From the IMG/VR virus record IMGVR_UViG_3300020122_000144, positions 1-54,876 of that record: a DNA stretch of 54,876 bases; one strand, written 5' to 3'. The DNA is from a virus. Both the position numbers and the translations under genes were made by a program. Position 1 is the first letter of the stretch, and the number at the start of each line of letters is the position of its first letter. A model generated the notes under the pieces. That model did not search any database. It was not told the origin of the DNA and was given only the letters and a program-made list of their open reading frames with translations. Shown here piece by piece: positions 2,121-54,876 of this stretch.

Positions 2121-2180
2121 GGTCGGCTGATGTCTCCCCAAGATGCTCACAAGTGACAAATGCTCAGTGGTTACGCGTGC

Positions 2181-2230
2181 AAAAAGCCCGACCGGGTTGC
2201 GTGCATGCTGCACGCGACGCACGATCGGGC
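2181..2230 (-). terminator. Rho-independent terminator for the leftward HTH/GIY-YIG operon
   Basis: Read on the minus strand, an outer stem GCCCGA/TCGGGC (2225-2230 with 2186-2191) encloses an inner perfect stem GCGTGCA/TGCACGC, followed at once by TTTTT (2185-2181). It starts eight bases after the stop of the gene at 2238-2588, so that two-gene operon is a separate transcription unit from the leftward genes below 2120. Confidence 0.8.
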
Positions 2231-2237
2231 GATGCTG

Positions 2238-2588
2238 TTAGCTGGAGCGGAGGAGCGGCGCGGTGGCGAACTGACTCACGAACCAGAGAAGGTCTTCGCT
2301 CGGGTCGAACCACTCGCGACCAAGGGACCTCCTTGTCGAGCGCCGCGTGTCAGCGAACCACTCGTGAAGCTCGCGCTCCAAGCGCATGGTGCTGCGGATG
2401 ACGCCGAGGGTCCGCAGCGGTTCCTTCACCGACGAGGCGAGCGCATCGAGGCGACCGTAGAGGTTCGTCGTGAATCCGATCTTGACGGCGCCGTCAGAAG
2501 GTCGCTGGACGAAGTAGACGAAGCCGTCGTGGGCATACGCACGGTTCCCGAGATTCGCTCGCCCAAACCGGATTGGTTGCCACGTCAC
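2238..2588 (-). CDS. GIY-YIG superfamily nuclease, T5orf172/Mug113-type
   Basis: 116 residues. The pattern FVYFVQ, a spacer, then KIGFT (residues about 23-40) matches the two GIY-YIG strands of the T5orf172/Mug113 branch. It is followed by NLYGRL (catalytic Arg), RELHEWF (catalytic Glu) and GREWF. Members are single-domain, presumed Mg-dependent nucleases, often in phages. It lies three bases downstream of the HTH gene at 2592-2849 under the leftward operator-controlled promoter and is followed by a terminator, so it should be made early or on derepression. A homing role is possible but there is no DNA-binding domain; host DNA degradation or recombination are alternatives. Confidence 0.8.
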   Translation of the reverse strand: MTWQPIRFGRANLGNRAYAHDGFVYFVQRPSDGAVKIGFTTNLYGRLDALASSVKEPLRTLGVIRSTMRLERELHEWFADTRRSTRRSLGREWFDPSEDLLWFVSQFATAPLLRSS

Positions 2589-2591
2589 CGC

Positions 2592-2849
2592 TCAACCCCT
2601 CGCCACGCGAGAGACGTCTTCCTCGGTGACGGCCTGCCGTGGTCCGGTGGCGTCGGCGTCGACCCACTCGGCGGCAGGCATCGCGACTTCCGACCGCTCG
2701 ATGGCGAAAGCCTGCTCGAGCGACGGTGTCCGAGTGCCGGCAATCCAGCGACACACAAGCGTGTGATCGGCGCCGATCTCCTTCGCAAGACGGAGCTGCG
2801 TCCAGCCGATCTCGGTCAACCGCGCACTCAATCGTTGGCCAGGGCTCAT
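2592..2849 (-). CDS. Cro-like XRE-family helix-turn-helix regulator
   Basis: 85 residues. An XRE-type HTH occupies residues about 15-50: WTQLRLAKEIGADHTLVCRW and then GTRTPS, the usual loop before helix 4. The acidic tail is too short for a peptidase domain. It is the first gene of the leftward operon, its ATG nine bases beyond the -10 box of the leftward promoter. By position and size it is a Cro-like counterpart to the repressor encoded divergently at 2943-3461. Which operator it prefers cannot be read from the sequence. Confidence 0.8.
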   Translation of the reverse strand: MSPGQRLSARLTEIGWTQLRLAKEIGADHTLVCRWIAGTRTPSLEQAFAIERSEVAMPAAEWVDADATGPRQAVTEEDVSRVARG

Positions 2850-2853
2850 CTGT

Positions 2854-2886
2854 GGGCAATATTGCCCGCTGACAAGGAATTGTCAA
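2854..2886 (-). promoter_or_regulatory. Leftward early promoter with operator (PL-like)
   Basis: On the minus strand: -35 TTGACA (2886-2881, perfect), a 17-base spacer, and -10 AATATT (2863-2858, 4 of 6). A perfect palindrome TGACAA-GGAA-TTGTCA (2870-2885, + strand) covers the -35 and spacer. A second perfect palindrome GGGCAATATTGCCC (2854-2867) covers the -10. The arrangement closely matches the rightward promoter at 3784-3812. Confidence 0.75.
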
Positions 2887-2942
2887 ATGGCAAGAATGAC
2901 GCGGCGTGTGATTCTCGTGTTGTCCCGTGGCAATCTTTGGGT

Positions 2943-3461
2943 GTGAAGACGCTTGGTCAGCGGCTTAGGTCCGCCATGAGCGAGGCCGGCATCGAATCGG
3001 CAGAGCTTTGCCGTCGCGCTAAGGCACTCGGCGGCAGCGTCGATGCGCCGCGGATTACTCGACTATTGAAGGACGAGCGCACGGAGTTTCCGACAGTTCC
3101 GCTGCTTTTGCCAGTTGCCGAAGCGCTTGGCGTCAACGTGCGCTGGCTGTGGGATGGGGAGGGCGAGCGCTACACGAAGCCTCCGCCGGGTCGCGTCGCT
3201 CTTGAGGAAGCCTTCCGCACGATTGTCTGGCCAACGCCGACCGTCGTAGAGGCCGCCGACGTAGCAACGAGGCGAGCTCGTGCCGAAGCCGACCTTCCCG
3301 CTGGCCGTGAGCGCGTGGTCTCGGTGTGGATGGTTCGACTGCTTCAGCTCTACGCGGAGGCGCTGGCGATGCCTGCAGGGGTTGCCGGCCCATCTGCTCT
3401 TGATGAGCCGAACGGCAAACGTGCGCATGGCCGCCGTCGCTCCGTGCGCCTTCGCCCCTAA
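2943..3461 (+). CDS. CI-like phage repressor (HTH, no peptidase domain)
   Basis: 172 residues from a GTG at 2943 (reads KTLGQRLRSAMSEAG after the start). The N-terminal domain follows the phage-repressor pattern: LGQRLR, a first helix, LCRRAKALGG, then VDAPRITRLLKDE and a final helix ending VNVRWLWDGEGE (residues about 4-78). The C-terminal half (80-172) is Arg/Ala-rich and lacks the S24 Ser-Lys peptidase signature, so induction by RecA-stimulated self-cleavage is not supported. The gene lies between the two matching promoter-operators, the classic place for the immunity repressor. It runs rightward from the 2886-2943 gap, so it may control its own promoter there. No strong Shine-Dalgarno precedes the GTG. 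Confidence 0.75.
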   Translation: MKTLGQRLRSAMSEAGIESAELCRRAKALGGSVDAPRITRLLKDERTEFPTVPLLLPVAEALGVNVRWLWDGEGERYTKPPPGRVALEEAFRTIVWPTPTVVEAADVATRRARAEADLPAGRERVVSVWMVRLLQLYAEALAMPAGVAGPSALDEPNGKRAHGRRRSVRLRP

Positions 3462-3613: not shown

Positions 3614-3783
3614 TCTCGGCCCCTCCTGCCATCGTGGATCTGCGAGTTTTCCACGATGCGGCGATACGTCGACCCCCGCCGGGAGTACGTGGAACCAATG
3701 AGCGAGGCGGAAATTTATGATGAGTGCGCGCACGAGCTAAGTGCGCGACTTGTCGTTTTTCTGCACGAGCCATAGTTTGCCAA

Positions 3784-3812
3784 TTGACAATTCGTTGTCA
3801 GACGGCAATAGT
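3784..3812 (+). promoter_or_regulatory. Rightward early promoter with operator (PR-like)
   Basis: -35 TTGACA at 3784-3789 (perfect), 17-base spacer, -10 AATAGT at 3807-3812 (4 of 6). The palindrome TGACAA-TTCG-TTGTCA (3785-3800) overlaps the -35. Aligned with the leftward promoter, the 29 bases differ at only four positions, so both should answer to the same repressor. It would drive the rightward operon starting at 3861. Confidence 0.75.
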
Positions 3813-3860
3813 CCCTCTCACGAGACGCCGCGGTGGCGCTCTCCGGGAGGTCGATGCCCG

Positions 3861-10607: not shown

Positions 10608-11221
10608 GCAAGCCGATTCGAGAGTGGGCGCTGGAGACCGTCCCGAGCGACGACATGCTCTGGAAGGGCGGGTGGGGCTCGCAGGTGATGTTCTTCCGCG
10701 ACGACCTCCGATACCTGATGGGTTCGGGACTCGACTACGAGGACGCCAAGGGGCTCGGGCGGGTCATCTCTACGCACACGAGCAAGTCGATCGCGCTCCC
10801 CGTCGTCGAGTACGACCGCAAAGACATCGGGCTGCGCGTCATCCTTCGCGACAACTTCCACGACTGGAAGCTCAGCGTCATCAGCGAGAGGCCGATCACG
10901 TCGTGCTTCGACGGCCTGTTCCACACCACGCCGCCGGTGGAGCCCGAGTACACGGGCGACTACCTGTCGCCCTGCTACTTCGAGGGCTTCCCGCGCGATC
11001 TGGTCTTCGGTTACCTGTCGAAGTCGGACGGTCGCCGCTGGTCTGCGATGCCTAGCGGCCGTCACGGCGTGTGGACGACGCTGTTCCTCATCCTGCGCGA
11101 GTTGGGCGCAGTGAAGCCGCACGTCTGGAATACCAAGGCTGCGCACCGAGCACAGATCGACGCGGACACCGCGAAGCGCATGGCGCGTGCGGCTGCGGAG
11201 AAAGGGTCCGTGGAGCGATGA
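10604..11221 (+). CDS. Hypothetical protein upstream of queC, 205 aa
   Basis: ATG with GGAG seven bases upstream. Mixed alpha/beta protein with many aromatic residues (MLWKGGWGSQVMFF, DWKLSVIS, YLSPCYFEGFPRDLVFGYL) and a helical C-terminus. I do not recognise a family. Its stop overlaps the queC start, so it may work with the 7-deazaguanine genes, but no catalytic motif is evident. Confidence 0.6.
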   Translation: MSKPIREWALETVPSDDMLWKGGWGSQVMFFRDDLRYLMGSGLDYEDAKGLGRVISTHTSKSIALPVVEYDRKDIGLRVILRDNFHDWKLSVISERPITSCFDGLFHTTPPVEPEYTGDYLSPCYFEGFPRDLVFGYLSKSDGRRWSAMPSGRHGVWTTLFLILRELGAVKPHVWNTKAAHRAQIDADTAKRMARAAAEKGSVER

Positions 11222-11952
11222 GCGAATCCAGTCGTAACCCCATGTCGAACCGCGCTGTCGTCGTCCTCTCGGGCGGGCTCGACTCCGTCGCGGCGCTCTG
11301 CTGGGCGCGCGCTCGCTACACGGAGCTCCAGGCGATCACGTTCGAGTACGGGCAGCCAGCGAGAAACCAGGAGGTGCCCGCCGCGCAGCGCTCCGCCGCC
11401 AAGTTGGGCGTCGGCTGGCGCGTCGTTGGGCTGAGCGACGCGCTGCGGCCCGAGAAGCCGGGCGGCATCCTTGGCGGCGTTCAGGACCACGACACGTCTC
11501 GCTTTGGCGGGGTCGATCGCGCCTTCGTGCCCGGTCGCAATGGGCTCTTCGCGCTGGTCGCGCTCTCGCACTCGTGCTCGTGGTGGCCGAACGGAAACGT
11601 CGACATCGTCATGGGCGCCTGCGCCGAGGACCAGGCCGGGTTCCCTGACTGTCGGCCGGCGAACCTCGACAAGCTCGCGATGGGGCTGCGGGCCTGCTTC
11701 GGACGATCCGTCACGGTCCGGCTGCCGTGGGCGGAGTCGACGAAGAGTCAGATCCTCTACGCGGTGAAGCCCGACGCGGAAGCGCTCTGGATCGTCCAGC
11801 GCTCTTACTCCTGCTATCGCGAGGACGGCCCGTGCCTGCGTTGCGGGGCGTGCGTCAAGCGGAAGGCCGCCTTCGACGCCCACCCGGACATCCTCGACCT
11901 TTCTCAGCGGACGCACATGACCGGCGGCGACCCCGCGCGGGCGGTCCGTTGA
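11218..11952 (+). CDS. queC: QueC, 7-cyano-7-deazaguanine (preQ0) synthase
   Basis: 244 residues. The ATP pyrophosphatase (PP-loop) motif SGGLDS is at 18-23, FEYGQ at 42-46, FVPGRN at 103-108, PDCR at 143-146, and the four zinc cysteines are Cys199, 206, 209 and 212 (SCYREDGPCLRCGAC). QueC turns 7-carboxy-7-deazaguanine and ammonia into preQ0 using ATP. No folE, queD or queE is recognisable here, so the precursor would have to come from the host. The next gene, overlapping by TGATG, is DpdA-like, which points to DNA modification instead of tRNA queuosine. All key motifs are intact. Confidence 0.93.
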   Translation: MSESSRNPMSNRAVVVLSGGLDSVAALCWARARYTELQAITFEYGQPARNQEVPAAQRSAAKLGVGWRVVGLSDALRPEKPGGILGGVQDHDTSRFGGVDRAFVPGRNGLFALVALSHSCSWWPNGNVDIVMGACAEDQAGFPDCRPANLDKLAMGLRACFGRSVTVRLPWAESTKSQILYAVKPDAEALWIVQRSYSCYREDGPCLRCGACVKRKAAFDAHPDILDLSQRTHMTGGDPARAVR

Positions 11953-24115: not shown

Positions 24116-24799
24116 CTATGCGGCCAGCCTGAACGTGGGACAGATGAGGCCTAGGACACCCCACTCGCGCTTGCTGCAGTTGCACGACTTGCAGAGCGGA
24201 ACGATGTTGTCAGCTTCGTGGCGACCGCCACGCGAGAGCGCGATGACGTGGTCCATGGTGAGCGTCTCGTCAGAGCGTAGGCAGTGCCCGCATGCGTGAT
24301 TGAACCGGTCAAGGATCGCGAGCCACTCCGCGGCCGTCACGCGACCCGTCGTGATCTTCTGGACGCGACGATTTTCCGAGACGACGCGCTTGCGTTCCGG
24401 ATGCGCCCGGTTCCAGGCGAGCGACTTGGCCATGTTCGCTGCGGGATCAGCGTCGTATTTACGTTTCTTGGCTGCCGCAACTGCCGCCCTGTTGGCGAGC
24501 TGCCAAGCGCGCAGGTAGTCTCGCCGCTGGTCACGATTGGCCGACTGCCACGTTCGCATGTACTCGTCGCGACGGCCTTTGTTCTCGACCTGCCAGGCGC
24601 GCGCCCTCCCCTTGCTGTATTCGCGATTGGCGCGGTACCAATCGCGGCTGATGGCGTTGAGCTGGGCGCGGCTCTCCGGTGCGAGAAGAGCCCTTTTCGC
24701 GTTGACCCTATGCGACTTGCATGACCCGCAAAGAAGCCCGTACGAACGACACGAATTGTCGTTGGTCAGTTCGACCGAGCAGTCTTTGCAGGTGCGCAT
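24116..24799 (-). CDS. HNH endonuclease inserted among tail genes
   Basis: 227 residues from ATG 24799. N-terminal zinc ribbon CKDCSVEL with LLCGSCKSHR, then several repeats of a RxWQxANR-type helix (AWQVENKGRRD, TWQSANRDQRRD, AWQLANRAAV), probably DNA-binding. The C-terminal HNH nuclease reads CGHCLRS, LTMDHVIALSRGG, NIVPLCKSCNCSK. This matches freestanding phage HNH homing endonucleases. It separates the fibre gene at 24813 from the gene at 23559 and follows the fibre gene's coding strand. A perfect palindrome TTACCA-GT-TGGTAA (24812-24825) precedes it. Confidence 0.85.
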   Translation of the reverse strand: MRTCKDCSVELTNDNSCRSYGLLCGSCKSHRVNAKRALLAPESRAQLNAISRDWYRANREYSKGRARAWQVENKGRRDEYMRTWQSANRDQRRDYLRAWQLANRAAVAAAKKRKYDADPAANMAKSLAWNRAHPERKRVVSENRRVQKITTGRVTAAEWLAILDRFNHACGHCLRSDETLTMDHVIALSRGGRHEADNIVPLCKSCNCSKREWGVLGLICPTFRLAA

Positions 24800-24812
24800 T
24801 TTGATTACCAGT

Positions 24813-25544
24813 TTACCAGTTGGTAACCAGGACATCAACCGTACTTGAATTCGCCGTATCGATCGTTCCCGCCGCGACGCGCGCGATGACGATGAGCGCC
24901 GCTGCGCCGGACTTGCCGATGGTGCGGCCCGCCGAGTTGGAGCCATAGGCGAGCGTCGACGTCAGCGTGCCGCCGGGCGTGTTCATCATGCACTGGACGC
25001 CGCTTCGGGTCGCTGACCACAGGAACAGGCCCTCCGTCGAGCCGAGCGTGTACGTGCCCGACGCGAGGGTGATGATGTTCTTGCAGACGCGAGGATAAAA
25101 CACCGGATCGTTGGTGCCGACAACGAAGCCGCCGGTGGTGGTCGCCATCGCCTTCCACGTCGAGCCAGCCCACAGTGTGCCCTCGGAAACCTCGACGGTG
25201 CAGCCGTTCTGCCCGGTCGTGCCGAAGGCCATCGAGGACAGGCGCGTGAGCGGCGCAACGCCGACCGCGACCGTGCCGACGACGTAGAGCCCGCAGTCGG
25301 CCGCGGTCGTCTGCGCCGCGAGGAGCACGATGTCACCGGCGATGTACGTGACGCCGTCCTGCGCGGTGCCGCCGGTCACGCCGACGAACGCGGTCAGAGA
25401 CTGGGTCGCGTAGCAGGCGCCGCGCGCCTTGAAAGCGGTCTGCCCGGGGGCCTGCCAAGCGGGGTAGCCGTCCGCGGCCGTGCGGAGGACGTCGCCAACG
25501 TTACCCGAGTTGATGGATCGCTCCGGCTGATTACCATTCGGCAT
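24813..25544 (-). CDS. Tail fibre/appendage protein, 243 aa
   Basis: Starts MPNGNQPERSINSGNVGDVL then RTAADGYPAWQAPGQTAFKA, a pattern common in phage fibre N-termini. The rest is Thr/Gly/Ala-rich beta structure with little charge. Shine-Dalgarno CAGGAG lies seven bases before the ATG but is paired in the conserved leader at 25548-25644. The gene is first in the fibre/lysis block. Confidence 0.6.
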   Translation of the reverse strand: MPNGNQPERSINSGNVGDVLRTAADGYPAWQAPGQTAFKARGACYATQSLTAFVGVTGGTAQDGVTYIAGDIVLLAAQTTAADCGLYVVGTVAVGVAPLTRLSSMAFGTTGQNGCTVEVSEGTLWAGSTWKAMATTTGGFVVGTNDPVFYPRVCKNIITLASGTYTLGSTEGLFLWSATRSGVQCMMNTPGGTLTSTLAYGSNSAGRTIGKSGAAALIVIARVAAGTIDTANSSTVDVLVTNW

Positions 25545-25547
25545 GTG

Positions 25548-25644
25548 AGACTCCTGAAGCCGCGGTGAGCGGCGGAATAAATCGTTCGGACTCGCCGGCC
25601 TGGTTTCAGGAGCCGGAATCTCGAAGGCGATTTTTCAGGGGCCT
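25548..25644 (-). promoter_or_regulatory. Conserved structured leader RNA, copy 2 (fibre gene)
   Basis: Transcript stems: P1 AGGCCCCTGA with TCAGGAGTCT (+ 25635-25644 with 25548-25557; one G-U, one mismatch); P2 AAATCG/CGATTT (+ 25628-25633 with 25579-25584); P3 CCGG-CCTG/CAGG-CCGG (+ 25595-25616); P4 GCCGC/GCGGC (+ 25559-25563 with 25569-25573). P1 ends three bases before ATG and hides the AGGAG. Same layout as the capsid leader at 38479-38584. Confidence 0.75.
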
Positions 25645-37171: not shown

Positions 37172-37237
37172 CTCCGCGAATTCTTTGGGCGTGGTGATTG
37201 GCAATCAGCGGAGCCCCCGTGCAGGCGAGGACTCCGC
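37172..37237 (-). promoter_or_regulatory. Alternative-pairing leader before the 37165 gene
   Basis: In transcript order GCGGAG (37237-37232), CTCCGC (37213-37208), GCGGAG (37177-37172). The middle segment can pair with either, and the last contains the ribosome site GGAG. A palindrome TGATTG-G-CAATCA lies at about 37195-37207. The rest of the gap 37166-37251 shows nothing else. Confidence 0.5.
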
Positions 37238-37251
37238 CGATCGCGCGCGGG

Positions 37252-38475
37252 TCAGAACTCGACGACGCCGTTCTTGGCGGGGTTGGAGCAGTAGGTCGCG
37301 CAGCGGTAGAGTGTCCGAAATTCATACGAGTCCGCGCCCGCGGTGCGCAGCCACGACATCTTGTCGAGGAAGTCGACCTTGGGGATCTGACCCATCGACG
37401 GCATGAGCCACGTCGACATGTCGAGCATGTACGCCGTGCCCTGCGAAAGGAACGGGTCGGTCATGATCTTGATCGTGCCGAACGGCGCGACGTACTCGAT
37501 TGCCGAGAAACCGATCTGCGGGTTCTTGAACGCGGTCTCGGTCGTGATGCGGACGTTCGTCGTGAGGTCCTTCGAGATGTCGGCGAAGTCGAGATCGTTG
37601 ACGAAGAAGTGCGTCGGCTTGCTCTTCAGCCGGTGCAGCATCATGCCGAGCTGGATCATCGACTCCTTCTTCGGAGCGCCCTTACCCTGGTAGGGCACGC
37701 CCGCGAGGCGCACCGGATCGGCCGAGCGCGTGACGCCGTTGAACGACGTCCCGAGGACGGCGGAGCGGAGCGAGCCGGGGACGATCCACGCCGGGATGCC
37801 CTGGAACGCGAGGCCGAAGTCTCCGTCCATGAAGAGGTAATCGGTGTTGACGGGCGACGTGATGCCCGTGTCCCAGTTGCCCGACGCCGTGAGGACGCCG
37901 GTGAAGAGGTCGACCGCGGTGAGCGTGACCGAGCCGACCTTGACGGTGCCGGTCGTGCCGTCCGTGGCGCTCAACTTGATGACCTGGCCGACGCGGAAGT
38001 TGATCGCGTCCGACACGTTGGCCAACGTCTGCACGAGGCCGGTGACAGTCGTGGAGCCGTCGAGCTTGCCGATGGAGCCGCCGCCGTTGTGCCAGAGGGC
38101 TGCGCCGATCTGCTGGCCGATCGCGTCGTACGCGCCTTCGGTCTCGGAGATGACGGCCTTGACGAACGCGCCGCGATCGTTGCCGGTCTTGTCGAGGACT
38201 TCGCCGGAGACGAGCGCGCGGGCGTAGCCGCTGCGCCACGGGCAGGACCACTGCTTGTAGACCGACGCGCCGGACGACGTGAACGCCGTGGTGTCCGTCT
38301 GCGAGACAGCCGACGTGATGGAGGAGCGGATCGCGCCGAGGTACGCGGAGCCGGAGCCGCCGGTGTCCTTGGGCATCACGGCGAGCGCGGGCGACTGGAT
38401 CACCAGCGTCTCGACCTTCTTCGTCGTGTAGTACTGCTTTAGAATCGGCGTCGCCGCCGAGATATCGAATGCCAT
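37252..38475 (-). CDS. Major capsid protein, 407 aa
   Basis: Begins MAFDISAATPILKQYYTTKK. Length and the order of helical N-arm, central SGEVLDKTGNDRGAFVKAVI helix region, beta insertions and C-terminal beta (MLDMSTWLMPSMGQIPKVDF) fit an HK97-fold capsid subunit. It sits downstream of scaffold and portal and upstream of head-tail genes, the canonical place. AGGAG is seven bases from the ATG but is sequestered in the conserved leader 38479-38584, which suggests regulated, high-level translation. No separate protease gene was recognised. Confidence 0.75.
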   Translation of the reverse strand: MAFDISAATPILKQYYTTKKVETLVIQSPALAVMPKDTGGSGSAYLGAIRSSITSAVSQTDTTAFTSSGASVYKQWSCPWRSGYARALVSGEVLDKTGNDRGAFVKAVISETEGAYDAIGQQIGAALWHNGGGSIGKLDGSTTVTGLVQTLANVSDAINFRVGQVIKLSATDGTTGTVKVGSVTLTAVDLFTGVLTASGNWDTGITSPVNTDYLFMDGDFGLAFQGIPAWIVPGSLRSAVLGTSFNGVTRSADPVRLAGVPYQGKGAPKKESMIQLGMMLHRLKSKPTHFFVNDLDFADISKDLTTNVRITTETAFKNPQIGFSAIEYVAPFGTIKIMTDPFLSQGTAYMLDMSTWLMPSMGQIPKVDFLDKMSWLRTAGADSYEFRTLYRCATYCSNPAKNGVVEF

Positions 38476-38478
38476 GCG

Positions 38479-38584
38479 AGGCTCCTGAGCCGCTCCGCGT
38501 TGGCGGGCTGCGGCGGTTGAAATCGATTCGGGCTCGCCGACCTGGAGTCAGGGGTCGGGTGCCGCGGGCGATTTTCAGGAGCCT
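38479..38584 (-). promoter_or_regulatory. Conserved structured leader RNA, copy 1 (capsid gene)
   Basis: Transcript stems: P1 AGGCTCCTGA/TCAGGAGCCT, ten perfect pairs (+ 38575-38584 with 38479-38488); P2 AAATCG/CGATTT (+ 38569-38574 with 38520-38525); P3 CCGA-CCTG/CAGG-TCGG (+ 38537-38558); P4 GCCGC/GCGGC (+ 38489-38493 with 38510-38514). The AGGAG ribosome site is inside P1, three bases before ATG. Confidence 0.75.
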
Positions 38585-38590
38585 GCGCAA

Positions 38591-38618
38591 CGAGACGTCG
38601 TCGTCAGTGGACGTCTCG
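38591..38618. other. Strong hairpin between capsid leader and + strand island
   Basis: Perfect 9-bp inverted repeat CGAGACGTC/GACGTCTCG with a 10-base loop. No T run on either side, so not a standard terminator. The remaining part of 38585-38702 holds the palindromic ATTGGTAATCAGCG motif (about 38632-38646) and a hairpin TTGGAC/GTCCAA at 38682-38700 that includes the GGAGGT ribosome site of the next + gene. Confidence 0.55.
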
Positions 38619-38702
38619 AATGTTGGAATGGTGATTGGTAATCAGCGATGCGTCAACAGGCGCGATGTGCTAGTGGGTTGATTGGACATTGGAGGTCCAA
38701 AC

Positions 38703-38891
38703 ATGGCGGATGAACACATCACATCTGAGCAGCGCGCGGCGGTCGTCGAGGCTATTCACCGACTCGGTGTAAGCGAGGCCGCAAAGCGGCTCGGACTGTC
38801 CAACGAGTCCGTCTTGCGACTGGCCATTGGCGCAGGATCGCAGTCGGGGACAGAGGCGCTAGCTGCCTCTCGAATCGAAAGGTTGGCCTGA
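38703..38891 (+). CDS. Small HTH protein, first gene of the + strand island
   Basis: 62 residues; ATG seven bases after a perfect GGAGGT. VVEAIHRLGVSEAAKRLGLS is an AraC/resolvase-like helix-turn-helix seen in small regulators and next to homing endonucleases. Transcribed against the surrounding capsid operon and coupled to the endonuclease gene by overlap (shared base at 38891). Confidence 0.65.
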   Translation: MADEHITSEQRAAVVEAIHRLGVSEAAKRLGLSNESVLRLAIGAGSQSGTEALAASRIERLA

Positions 38892-39400
38892 TGGGTGTCC
38901 GTGTCGACATGACAGGGCGCACATGCGGGCGGTGGACCGTCACCGGCCCCGGGCCATCTCGCGCAGGGGACGCGTACTGGATGTGCCGGTGCGCCTGCGG
39001 CGTCGAGCGTGCTGTGGTGGGGAAAGATCTGCGGCGCGGCGGATCGGTGTCGTGCGGCTGCTATCAGGCCGAGGCGGTAAGCGCGGCCCTGACCACTCAT
39101 GGCCAGAGCCAGCATTCGCCGGAATATCAGGCGTGGAGAAGTATGCTCGGTCGCTGCTTGCAAAAACGGCGAGGCAGTTATCCGAATTACGGGGGCCGTG
39201 GCATCACCGTTTGCGATGAGTGGAAACTCTCTTTCGAGGCGTTCATCTCGCACATCGGGCCGCGCCCGTCTCCTGGACACAGCGTCGACCGCATCAACAA
39301 CGACGGCAACTATGAGCCGAGCAATGTGCGCTGGGCGACCCGTTCGCAGCAGCAACAAAACCGGCGACCCATCCTCCGCGCCGTGAAGGCGCCCACATGA
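38891..39400 (+). CDS. HNH-type homing endonuclease with zinc-ribbon and SF-E-F region
   Basis: 169 residues. N-terminal zinc ribbon (MCRCACGVERAVV, SVSCGCYQAEA), then PEYQAWRSMLGRC, YGGRGITVCDEWK, SFEAFISHIGPRPSPGHSVD and DRINNDGNYEPSNVRWATRS, ending QQQQNRRP. This is the usual order in the phage HNH/AP2-like endonuclease family, whose members move into intron-free intergenic sites. Inserted between capsid and paralogue genes in reverse orientation. The DRIN-NDGNY-W core is intact, so it should be active. Confidence 0.85.
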   Translation: MGVRVDMTGRTCGRWTVTGPGPSRAGDAYWMCRCACGVERAVVGKDLRRGGSVSCGCYQAEAVSAALTTHGQSQHSPEYQAWRSMLGRCLQKRRGSYPNYGGRGITVCDEWKLSFEAFISHIGPRPSPGHSVDRINNDGNYEPSNVRWATRSQQQQNRRPILRAVKAPT

Positions 39401-39579
39401 CCGACGGCCTCCGCCCGCCCATCCCCTACACGATCCGCTTGGTCGACGCGGCGCACTTCAACGTCGACCGCTGCGTCTCTTGCGGTCGCAAGCTGACGCG
39501 GCGCGTGGACGCGTATGGCCGGGCGTTCTACTGGGAGACCGACCACGAACCGTGGTGCGGCGTGCGGATGCTGCGCTAG
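39397..39579 (+). CDS. Small CxxC protein, last gene of the island
   Basis: 60 residues; ATGA coupled to the endonuclease. CVSCGRKLTRR with a C-terminal HEPWCG supplies a three- to four-ligand zinc site. Ends one base before the convergent stop of the paralogue at 39581. Confidence 0.5.
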   Translation: MTDGLRPPIPYTIRLVDAAHFNVDRCVSCGRKLTRRVDAYGRAFYWETDHEPWCGVRMLR

Positions 39580-39580
39580 C

Positions 39581-40348
39581 TCAGCGCGCGACCATCACGA
39601 GCTCAAACTCAGGGCTCGCCGAGGCGCCCTGAGCCAACGCCCACTGGTGAATCGTGAACGTGCCGCCCGGGGGCACGATGACCGGCGGGCTATTCGCCAC
39701 GCGCTTGGAGTTCTGCGACACCTGCGCCGCCGTGAGGCCCGGGTGACCGAAGTGGTCGCCGCGGCCGAAGTTGATGATGAACTCGTCGCCGACGATGTTC
39801 AGCGCGCCGAGCTGGCCGCGACCGACGACGCGAGCCGAGCCCGAGGCCGCCGCGATGACCGAGACGGTCGCCGAGGACTGGAACTTGATGACCGGAGCCA
39901 CCGAGACCGAGGCGTTGCCGTTCGGGTTGACCGGTACGATCGCGGTCGCGAAGTTGTCGGTCGTGATGGCGCGGTACGTCGGATCGAGCACGCACGCGTA
40001 GTAGTGGACCGTCGACGACGTGGCCGCCGCGCTGGCGATCTGCTTCAGTGAGAGGATGTAGAGCGACTTGCCGCCCATCGGCTCGTTGTTGTAGACGTAG
40101 GTGCTCGGGCCGGTCGCGTTGAACGCCGTCTGCGCGGTCACGCCGGTGAGCCCGGTTCCCACGGTCGGCGACGTTGCGACGAGGAGCGAGCCCTCTTCGG
40201 CGTAGCCGTAGAGATTCCCGTCAGCCTCGGAGATGTTGAGCTCGCCGTAGCGCTTGAGGCGAACGGTCTTCGCGATGTCGCGGTCGTCGGGAAACCCGCT
40301 CGCGAGGACACGAGAAACGAAGCCCTGAATCTGTGCTTTGGCGCCCAT
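39581..40348 (-). CDS. Virion-region paralogue B, 255 aa
   Basis: Shares with its neighbour (40385-41161) MGAKAQIQGF, DDRD, YGE, EEGSLLVAT, PTVGTG, GGKSLY, VNPNGNAS, FGRGD, GHPGLTA and an E-x-VM-x-AR end: a tandem duplication. Low-charge, beta-rich second half. Placed between scaffold and major capsid genes, so it may be a capsid decoration or minor capsid protein; I do not recognise a family. AAGGAA precedes the ATG. Confidence 0.6.
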   Translation of the reverse strand: MGAKAQIQGFVSRVLASGFPDDRDIAKTVRLKRYGELNISEADGNLYGYAEEGSLLVATSPTVGTGLTGVTAQTAFNATGPSTYVYNNEPMGGKSLYILSLKQIASAAATSSTVHYYACVLDPTYRAITTDNFATAIVPVNPNGNASVSVAPVIKFQSSATVSVIAAASGSARVVGRGQLGALNIVGDEFIINFGRGDHFGHPGLTAAQVSQNSKRVANSPPVIVPPGGTFTIHQWALAQGASASPEFELVMVAR

Positions 40349-40384: not shown

Positions 40385-41161
40385 TCAGCGAGCCCACATG
40401 ACGATTTCAGCTTCCGGCTGAATCGCCGCCGTCGTCAGCGCCGGAAACCAGAAGTGACCCGTGAGGCTGCTCTGGGGCGGGATGATGCAGGGCGGGTGAT
40501 TGGTCACCAGGTGACGGCAGGTGGTTTCCACCGCGGTGAGCCCGGGATGCCCCGCGACGTCGCCGCGACCGAAGACCATGGTGTACGCGTCGCCGATGAG
40601 CGGAATGGTCCCCGCGAGCCAGCCCTGCGCGATGCGGCGCGGGCTGACGATCGCCGAGCAAATGCTCGGGGTCGCGCTGTTCTGCATCTTGCACGTGATG
40701 GCGACGGACGTTGCCGAGGCGTTGCCGTTCGGATTGACGACGGACATCTGCTGTCCGCTGTCCGTCGCGAACGAGCGCGCCGCCGTGTCCATGAAGTAGG
40801 CGAACTTCGCGCCCGTCGCCGCAGTCACCGCGGTCGTGACGATCAGCTTGACGTGCGAGAGGTAGAGCGACTTGCCGCCCGCCGGCTCGGGGTTGAAGAT
40901 GTAGAGCTGCGGCGCTGTGTCGACGAACGACTGGCAGCCGTTGCCGGTGATCGACCATGTGAAGCCTGTGCCCACGGTCGGGTTCGTGGCGACGAGGAGC
41001 GAGCCCTCCTCGCAGTAGCCGTACTGGCTGCGGTCGAACTCGGAGACGTTCACCTCGCCGTACTTCTTGAGCCGCAGCGTCTTCGCGACGTCGCGGTCGT
41101 CGACGTAGGGCGCCGGCAGGAGGCGAGAAATGAAGCCCTGGATCTGTGCTTTTGCGCCCAT
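40385..41161 (-). CDS. Virion-region paralogue A, 258 aa
   Basis: First copy in transcription order. Same segments as paralogue B at the ends and core, but the middle (about 65-180) has diverged: here WSITGNGCQSFVDTAPQLY and extra cysteines. CAGGAG lies seven bases before ATG. The duplication suggests two surface forms or hetero-oligomer subunits of one capsid feature. Confidence 0.6.
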   Translation of the reverse strand: MGAKAQIQGFISRLLPAPYVDDRDVAKTLRLKKYGEVNVSEFDRSQYGYCEEGSLLVATNPTVGTGFTWSITGNGCQSFVDTAPQLYIFNPEPAGGKSLYLSHVKLIVTTAVTAATGAKFAYFMDTAARSFATDSGQQMSVVNPNGNASATSVAITCKMQNSATPSICSAIVSPRRIAQGWLAGTIPLIGDAYTMVFGRGDVAGHPGLTAVETTCRHLVTNHPPCIIPPQSSLTGHFWFPALTTAAIQPEAEIVMWAR

Positions 41162-54701: not shown

Positions 54702-54876
54702 CGCTTCACCGCCAGCGCCTTGATGGCGAGGTACACGACGAGGTCGGCCAGTTCCTCGGCGGCCTCCTTCGTCCAGTCGCGACGGTCCGTGGCGATGTCG
54801 AGCGTCCCGTACTGCTGACGCCCGAGGACGAGGCGTTGCGTGATGTGAAGGATGACGGCGTGTTCGTCGGGGCCGA
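54698..54876 (-). CDS. MazG-like protein, right-edge copy
   Basis: Same gene as 1-167, entering from the right edge; the TGA is at 54698. Only 54698-54749 is unique to this end; the rest is the terminal repeat. Stop overlaps the HNH GTG (GTGA). Confidence 0.6.
   Translation of the reverse strand, partial: GPDEHAVILHITQRLVLGRQQYGTLDIATDRRDWTKEAAEELADLVVYLAIKALAVKR
54750..54876. repeat. Terminal direct repeat, right copy
   Basis: Identical to 1-127. See that entry. Confidence 0.95.

Follow-up and report, generated by a model that had tools for sequence, protein, structure and literature searches.

What does a highly structured RNA do directly in front of the major capsid gene of a phage, and what is to be made of a second copy preceding another virion gene in the same genome? 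The window (the whole stretch of DNA analysed, 54,876 nucleotides) is a virus record from IMG/VR whose ends carry a 127-bp terminal repeat (1-127 and 54750-54876). Its gene set includes an integrase, a repressor-like gene, an exonuclease, a Sak4-like annealing protein, a VapE/Prim-Pol, a large terminase and an SU10-type capsid, and the phage is therefore probably temperate. Virion gene control in DNA phages is mostly viewed as transcriptional. A conserved, transferable leader shutting the ribosome site of a capsid gene would indicate a translational checkpoint ahead of virion production, and would offer a very stable, possibly protein-triggered switch. The two leaders and their genes, compared where needed with two related viral sequences (G001 and G002), are made up as follows:

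37252-38475, minus strand: major capsid gene, SU10-type, 407 aa (Pfam SU10_MCP above cut-off; PHROG 14242, major head protein)
38479-38584, minus strand: capsid leader RNA, whole three-way junction (P1, P2-P3 arm, P4), from the fold and the G001 covariance model
38575-38584, minus strand: P1 5' arm AGGCUCCUGA (anti-Shine-Dalgarno), from the individual fold and hand alignment
38569-38574, minus strand: P2 5' arm AAAUCG, its pairs invariant in 4/4 copies
38529-38568, minus strand: CC bulge (38567-38568) and P3 hairpin with apical UGA loop; three P3 pairs with double-sided changes
38515-38525, minus strand: P2 3' arm CGAUUU (38520-38525) and joint CAACC (38515-38519), the joint kept in 3/4 copies
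38489-38514, minus strand: P4 hairpin GCCGC...GCGGC; replaced in G002 by another hairpin whose pairs differ on both sides
38479-38488, minus strand: P1 3' arm UCAGGAGCCU holding the Shine-Dalgarno AGGAG (38482-38486), 3 nt 5' of ATG; predicted unpaired probability about 0
25548-25644, minus strand: second leader RNA (fibre copy), from the fold and the G001 covariance model
25634-25644, 25579-25633, 25559-25573 and 25548-25558, minus strand: its P1 5' arm, P2-P3, P4 and P1 3' arm, respectively
24813-25544, minus strand: virion appendage gene (decoration- or fibre-like), 243 aa; weak PHROG matches, absent from G001

The initial annotation of this locus had described two leaders sharing their stems in one order, both ending three bases before ATG and hiding AGGAG in P1, and the present analysis agrees on each count. 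Indeed, unconstrained folds of the two copies, both on the minus strand, give the same succession (P1; P2, then the CC bulge, then P3; a 5-nt joint; P4 stacked on the P1 3' arm), the junctions with the start codon read CGC-ATG and CAC-ATG, and AGGAG sits in the P1 3' arm, paired in the fold. The ten perfect pairs claimed for the capsid P1 are all there, and the conserved spacing is seen in the P2-P4 joint, 5 nt long in both copies. P1 and P2 of the capsid copy form a near-continuous helix of 16 pairs; the P1 of the fibre copy carries one C-A mismatch and one G-U. Folded alone, the capsid leader reaches -53.6 kcal/mol (z -5.05; 0 of 200 shuffles fold as well) and the second leader -40.5 kcal/mol (z -3.33; 2 of 200). 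Among 30 gene starts quickly surveyed with a fixed frame of 131 nt, the two leaders had the lowest z values (-4.24 and -2.58). A conserved flank extends slightly beyond each leader, CGC/CGT as far as 38587 and CGT up to 25647.

The initial annotation would have counted as refuted had no more homologues with compensatory changes turned up; the search brought up G001 and G002, so that the claim was not refuted. G001, a close relative found by its capsid protein (87% identity), is a collinear and complete record of 49.8 kb; G002 was found by a DNA pattern, and its capsid is 78% identical over 193 aa. As this pattern was drawn from the conserved 5' end of the leader, the conservation of that end is partly due to the way G002 was selected, whereas G001, found by protein, is unbiased. 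In both, the leader lies directly 5' of the capsid ATG and adopts the same three-way junction (z -3.75 and -4.43), and all four copies fold significantly (z -3.3 to -5.1). Inside the window, local blastn with the capsid leader as query finds the fibre leader at E 1.9e-8, the next match being at 0.018. A covariance model built from G001 alone (334 kb searched) picks up the fibre copy with E 5.8e-11 and the capsid copy with E 2.7e-7, but G002 with no better than E 0.28.

A four-sequence model found no further credible copies in 567 kb of related and chance loci, and capsid relatives of 37% identity or less gave no model match; the element is thus restricted, as far as could be seen, to a narrow clade of uncultivated bacterial viruses. 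No capsid relatives at E 1e-5 are encoded in the records of the cultured-phage or plasmid collections, nor was the leader found in these collections. A scan across bacterial genomes yielded only a 28% capsid relative, and 398 Pseudomonadota genomes gave no leader model match in a search run without a positive control. Several candidates were discarded: the pattern matches L013, L014 and L016 in viral contigs (chance, leader fold absent), 23 of 25 stretches from one pattern scan of viral contigs (without the leader fold), and a model match, L040, lying within dense overlapping reading frames and devoid of a leader-like fold. The contigs of two related portal genes (L064, L065) stop short of the capsid gene.

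Between the window and G001, leader identity is 85% when aligned on structure (70% by plain alignment), as against approximately 50% for the 115 bases 5' of the leader and 73% for fourfold sites of the capsid gene. Likeness between the two window copies starts at CGTAGG and stops at ATG, the upstream stretches being 43% identical, and homology stops precisely at the start codon, 5' of two unrelated genes. With likeness confined to the leader and the upstream sequence diverged, the leader is, judging from these alignments, a sharply bounded module. Such a unit might also act as DNA, i.e. as an operator, recombination or homing site whose inverted-repeat arms are incidental to any RNA; the arms are long, HNH endonuclease genes lie near both copies and an HTH-like ORF adjoins. 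We hold this to be very improbable, however, as in 4/4 copies the unit stops exactly at the start codon, follows the gene's strand and carries the Shine-Dalgarno in one arm, and as P4 of G002 is altered in sequence yet still forms a hairpin at the same place.

Plain aligners misplace the P2 3' arm, and model-based and hand alignments were therefore used. A hand alignment of the four copies, guided by their individual folds, has standard pairing in 123 of 129 base-pair cells, and double-sided changes affect 7 of 34 pairs, all located in P3 and P4; the compensatory P3 change noted initially (A-U in the capsid copy, G-C in the fibre copy) is confirmed there. P4 of G002 is a wholly different hairpin of seven pairs, its position unchanged. 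P1 and P2, almost invariant across the four copies, bring little information on structure for that reason. In the model-made alignment two pairs change on both sides, with no excess over shuffles, and sliding of the partner cuts pairing from 93% to 21-44%. Random placement of the same substitutions keeps fewer pairs (P approx. 0.01 for the window copies, 0.20 for G002), in an alignment that leans to structure. Unpaired bases are kept as well as paired ones, namely the CC bulge, the UGA loop and, in 3/4 copies, the CAACC joint. The summed evidence for a conserved structure, coming from four related sequences, is strong but not final.

Is the ribosome site really closed by this structure? In silico, the Shine-Dalgarno is paired in the folded leader in 4/4 copies: its unpaired probability in context is approximately 0 in the capsid copy, and the sole open base in the other three is the A of GGAG, opposite a C. 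Opening it is predicted to cost 9-15 kcal/mol. The initial proposal of a conserved cis-acting RNA that hides the ribosome site is thus well supported, by the four homologues, by the double-sided changes of P3 and P4, and by the occlusion predicted in every copy. Two further ideas on the locus were considered and rejected. A reading of the leader as hidden N-terminal coding sequence of the capsid protein fails, as the frame in register with ATG is interrupted by a stop in 4/4 copies. Only the fibre copy offers strong strand exchange between the P3 loop (CUCCUGA) and the Shine-Dalgarno, and the pairing is poor in G002; such exchange is therefore not proposed as a common mechanism.

Because the site is predicted to stay shut from 20 to 70 °C, a temperature trigger is unlikely on these models, and an RNA thermometer is improbable accordingly. 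A metabolite riboswitch, considered together with it, is given the same low rank: conserved unpaired bases round the junction would suit a ligand site, but the Rfam riboswitch families are without match and a capsid gene would be an odd target for a metabolite.

From the anatomy of the leader we infer a regulatory role. Our preferred reading, at moderate confidence, is that of a cis-acting translational operator of virion structural genes that a trans factor would open, repression, switching and the switching factor being all putative. The leader mRNA would fold into the three-way junction, and since the closing helix P1 holds the Shine-Dalgarno, ribosomes would be kept from loading on leaky, early or read-through transcripts, e.g. 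in a lysogen. During the lytic phase, a factor acting in trans (a phage protein most likely) would recognise the CC bulge, the P3 UGA loop and the CAACC joint, and would change the leader fold so that the Shine-Dalgarno becomes exposed; the conservation of these unpaired bases suggests recognition by such a factor. We count in favour of the operator the four homologues with one fold, the paired Shine-Dalgarno and its opening cost, the P3 and P4 changes, the bounded unit, the conserved unpaired bases and the temperate gene set. Against it we count the small set of four related sequences, the shuffle result on the model alignment, the near-invariance of P1 and the absence of the second copy from G001. 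A bolder version, advanced only tentatively, would see here a new class of protein-sensing RNA operators in temperate phages, in which a portable three-way-junction leader makes translation of capsid and other virion genes dependent on a phage-encoded signal, either of assembly or of lytic commitment.

The same structure could be a static element, that is, a structured 5' end stabilising the mRNA, or a substrate in which an RNase III-type cut in the P1-P2 helix gives ribosomes access. The folds are very stable and the helix of the capsid copy is near-continuous over its 16 pairs, in keeping with this idea. A typical RNase III site is, however, a two-turn helix, of which P1-P2 falls short, and a pure stabiliser has no need of a Shine-Dalgarno inside P1 in 4/4 copies; we therefore judge a static element quite unlikely.

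The region upstream of the capsid leader comprises the following:

38588-38702, no strand assigned: divergent intergenic stretch, the place to expect a capsid promoter should the leader have a transcript of its own; approximately 50% identical to G001
38703-38891, plus strand: small HTH-like ORF, 62 aa, divergent from the capsid gene, from its translation and a G001 counterpart

As the HTH-like ORF is divergent from the capsid gene in both the window and G001, the capsid leader probably lies near the 5' end of its own transcript. The intergenic stretch of the two genomes has TTGACG in common, and no promoter-like site was found in 37200-39700 by scoring against the sigma-70 consensus only, which may not be that of the host. 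Just 5' of the leader, a perfect 8-bp hairpin (GAGACGUC/GACGUCUC) stands at 38593-38618 on the minus strand; the region of its CACUGA loop resembles the counterpart in G001 and, in part, that in G002. The 62-aa ORF, with no PHROG match, is on its sequence a possible regulator. No match to a phage-encoded CsrA was found in G000 or G001; host CsrA could conceivably act on the leader.

These data also bear on the logic of T4 gene e, soc and I-TevI, under which the structure would act solely on long transcripts that read through from upstream, keeping them silent, and a late promoter located at the leader or within it would give a translated mRNA without the P1 5' arm. This is a known phage solution for late genes (PMC3014915), and read-through is to be expected at the fibre copy, which begins 14 nt past the stop codon of a co-directional gene. 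Yet no promoter-like site appeared in the scored region, removal of the P1 5' arm raises predicted Shine-Dalgarno exposure only to approximately 0.2-0.4 (weak evidence in itself), and the conserved P2-P3-P4 interior would be needless; we regard this route as unlikely here.

The operator reading was initially extended to several structural genes, with a tail fibre gene behind the second copy. For the 243-aa protein, PHROG gives only weak matches, to families of virion structural, head decoration and tail fibre proteins, and the tail fibre label applies only loosely; relatives were not found among viral contigs. Similarly, co-ordination of several genes agrees with the two copies in the window, whereas the complete relative G001 has neither the second leader nor the appendage gene and bears a single copy, before the capsid gene. 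The fibre copy is identical to the G001 capsid leader at 88 of 101 positions and to that of its own genome at 79 of 96; being at least as close to the former, it is not, on these identities, a recent duplicate of the window's capsid copy. This closeness, along with the lack of both gene and copy in G001, indicates that the second copy probably arrived together with its gene. HNH endonuclease genes lie near both leaders (38891-39400, plus strand; 24116-24946, minus strand), and homing-type movement may have helped the module to spread.

Several known systems share features with these leaders. In T4, hairpins in the mRNAs of gene e, soc, 49 and I-TevI sequester the ribosome site and, according to a review, are relieved by late transcripts devoid of the 5' part (PMC3014915). 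Hiding the ribosome site of late phage genes in structure is thus not a new principle, and both cases involve late genes, a Shine-Dalgarno within an RNA helix and an expected block of premature translation. The leaders described here differ in forming a conserved three-way junction that precedes capsid genes and one further virion gene, and no promoter was found within them. Autogenous mRNA leaders of the ribosomal-protein type are translational operators, and likewise are conserved multi-helix 5' leaders, situated beside the start codon of a structural protein produced in large amounts; they act through a binding protein, whereas the partner of the virion leader is only putative. Thermometers such as ROSE and fourU also occlude the Shine-Dalgarno by a helix in the 5' UTR, but the present leader is far too stable, with no predicted opening up to 70 °C. 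The manA and wcaG motifs are structured cyanophage leaders found by comparison before metabolic genes (PMC2864571). Ours too are carried by phages and were found by comparison, but they precede virion genes, and Rfam gives no match to them. Indeed, Rfam 15 yielded no match above gathering threshold in the window, a permissive search giving chance-level matches only, and no transferable three-way-junction leader before a capsid gene was found in the literature (open-licence texts). Within the limits of the libraries searched, the initial statement that no such layout had been described therefore stands.

Further observations concern the rest of the genome. The terminal repeats are exactly 127 bp at the ends of both complete records, the window and G001, and this equal length suggests k-mer overlap from the assembly of a circular molecule, not a terminal repeat of biological origin. 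Two tandem paralogous genes (39581-40348 and 40385-41161; stretches 73-79% identical), with no family match in PHROG or Pfam, are inserted between the capsid gene and the portal block. A QueC-like gene (11071-11952, plus strand) possibly points to 7-deazaguanine DNA modification. Finally, an inverted pair of 39 nt, 85% complementary (2855-2893 and 3777-3815; cores TTGACAA/TTGTCAA), flanks the end of the repressor-like gene (2160-3461) and provides candidate operators.
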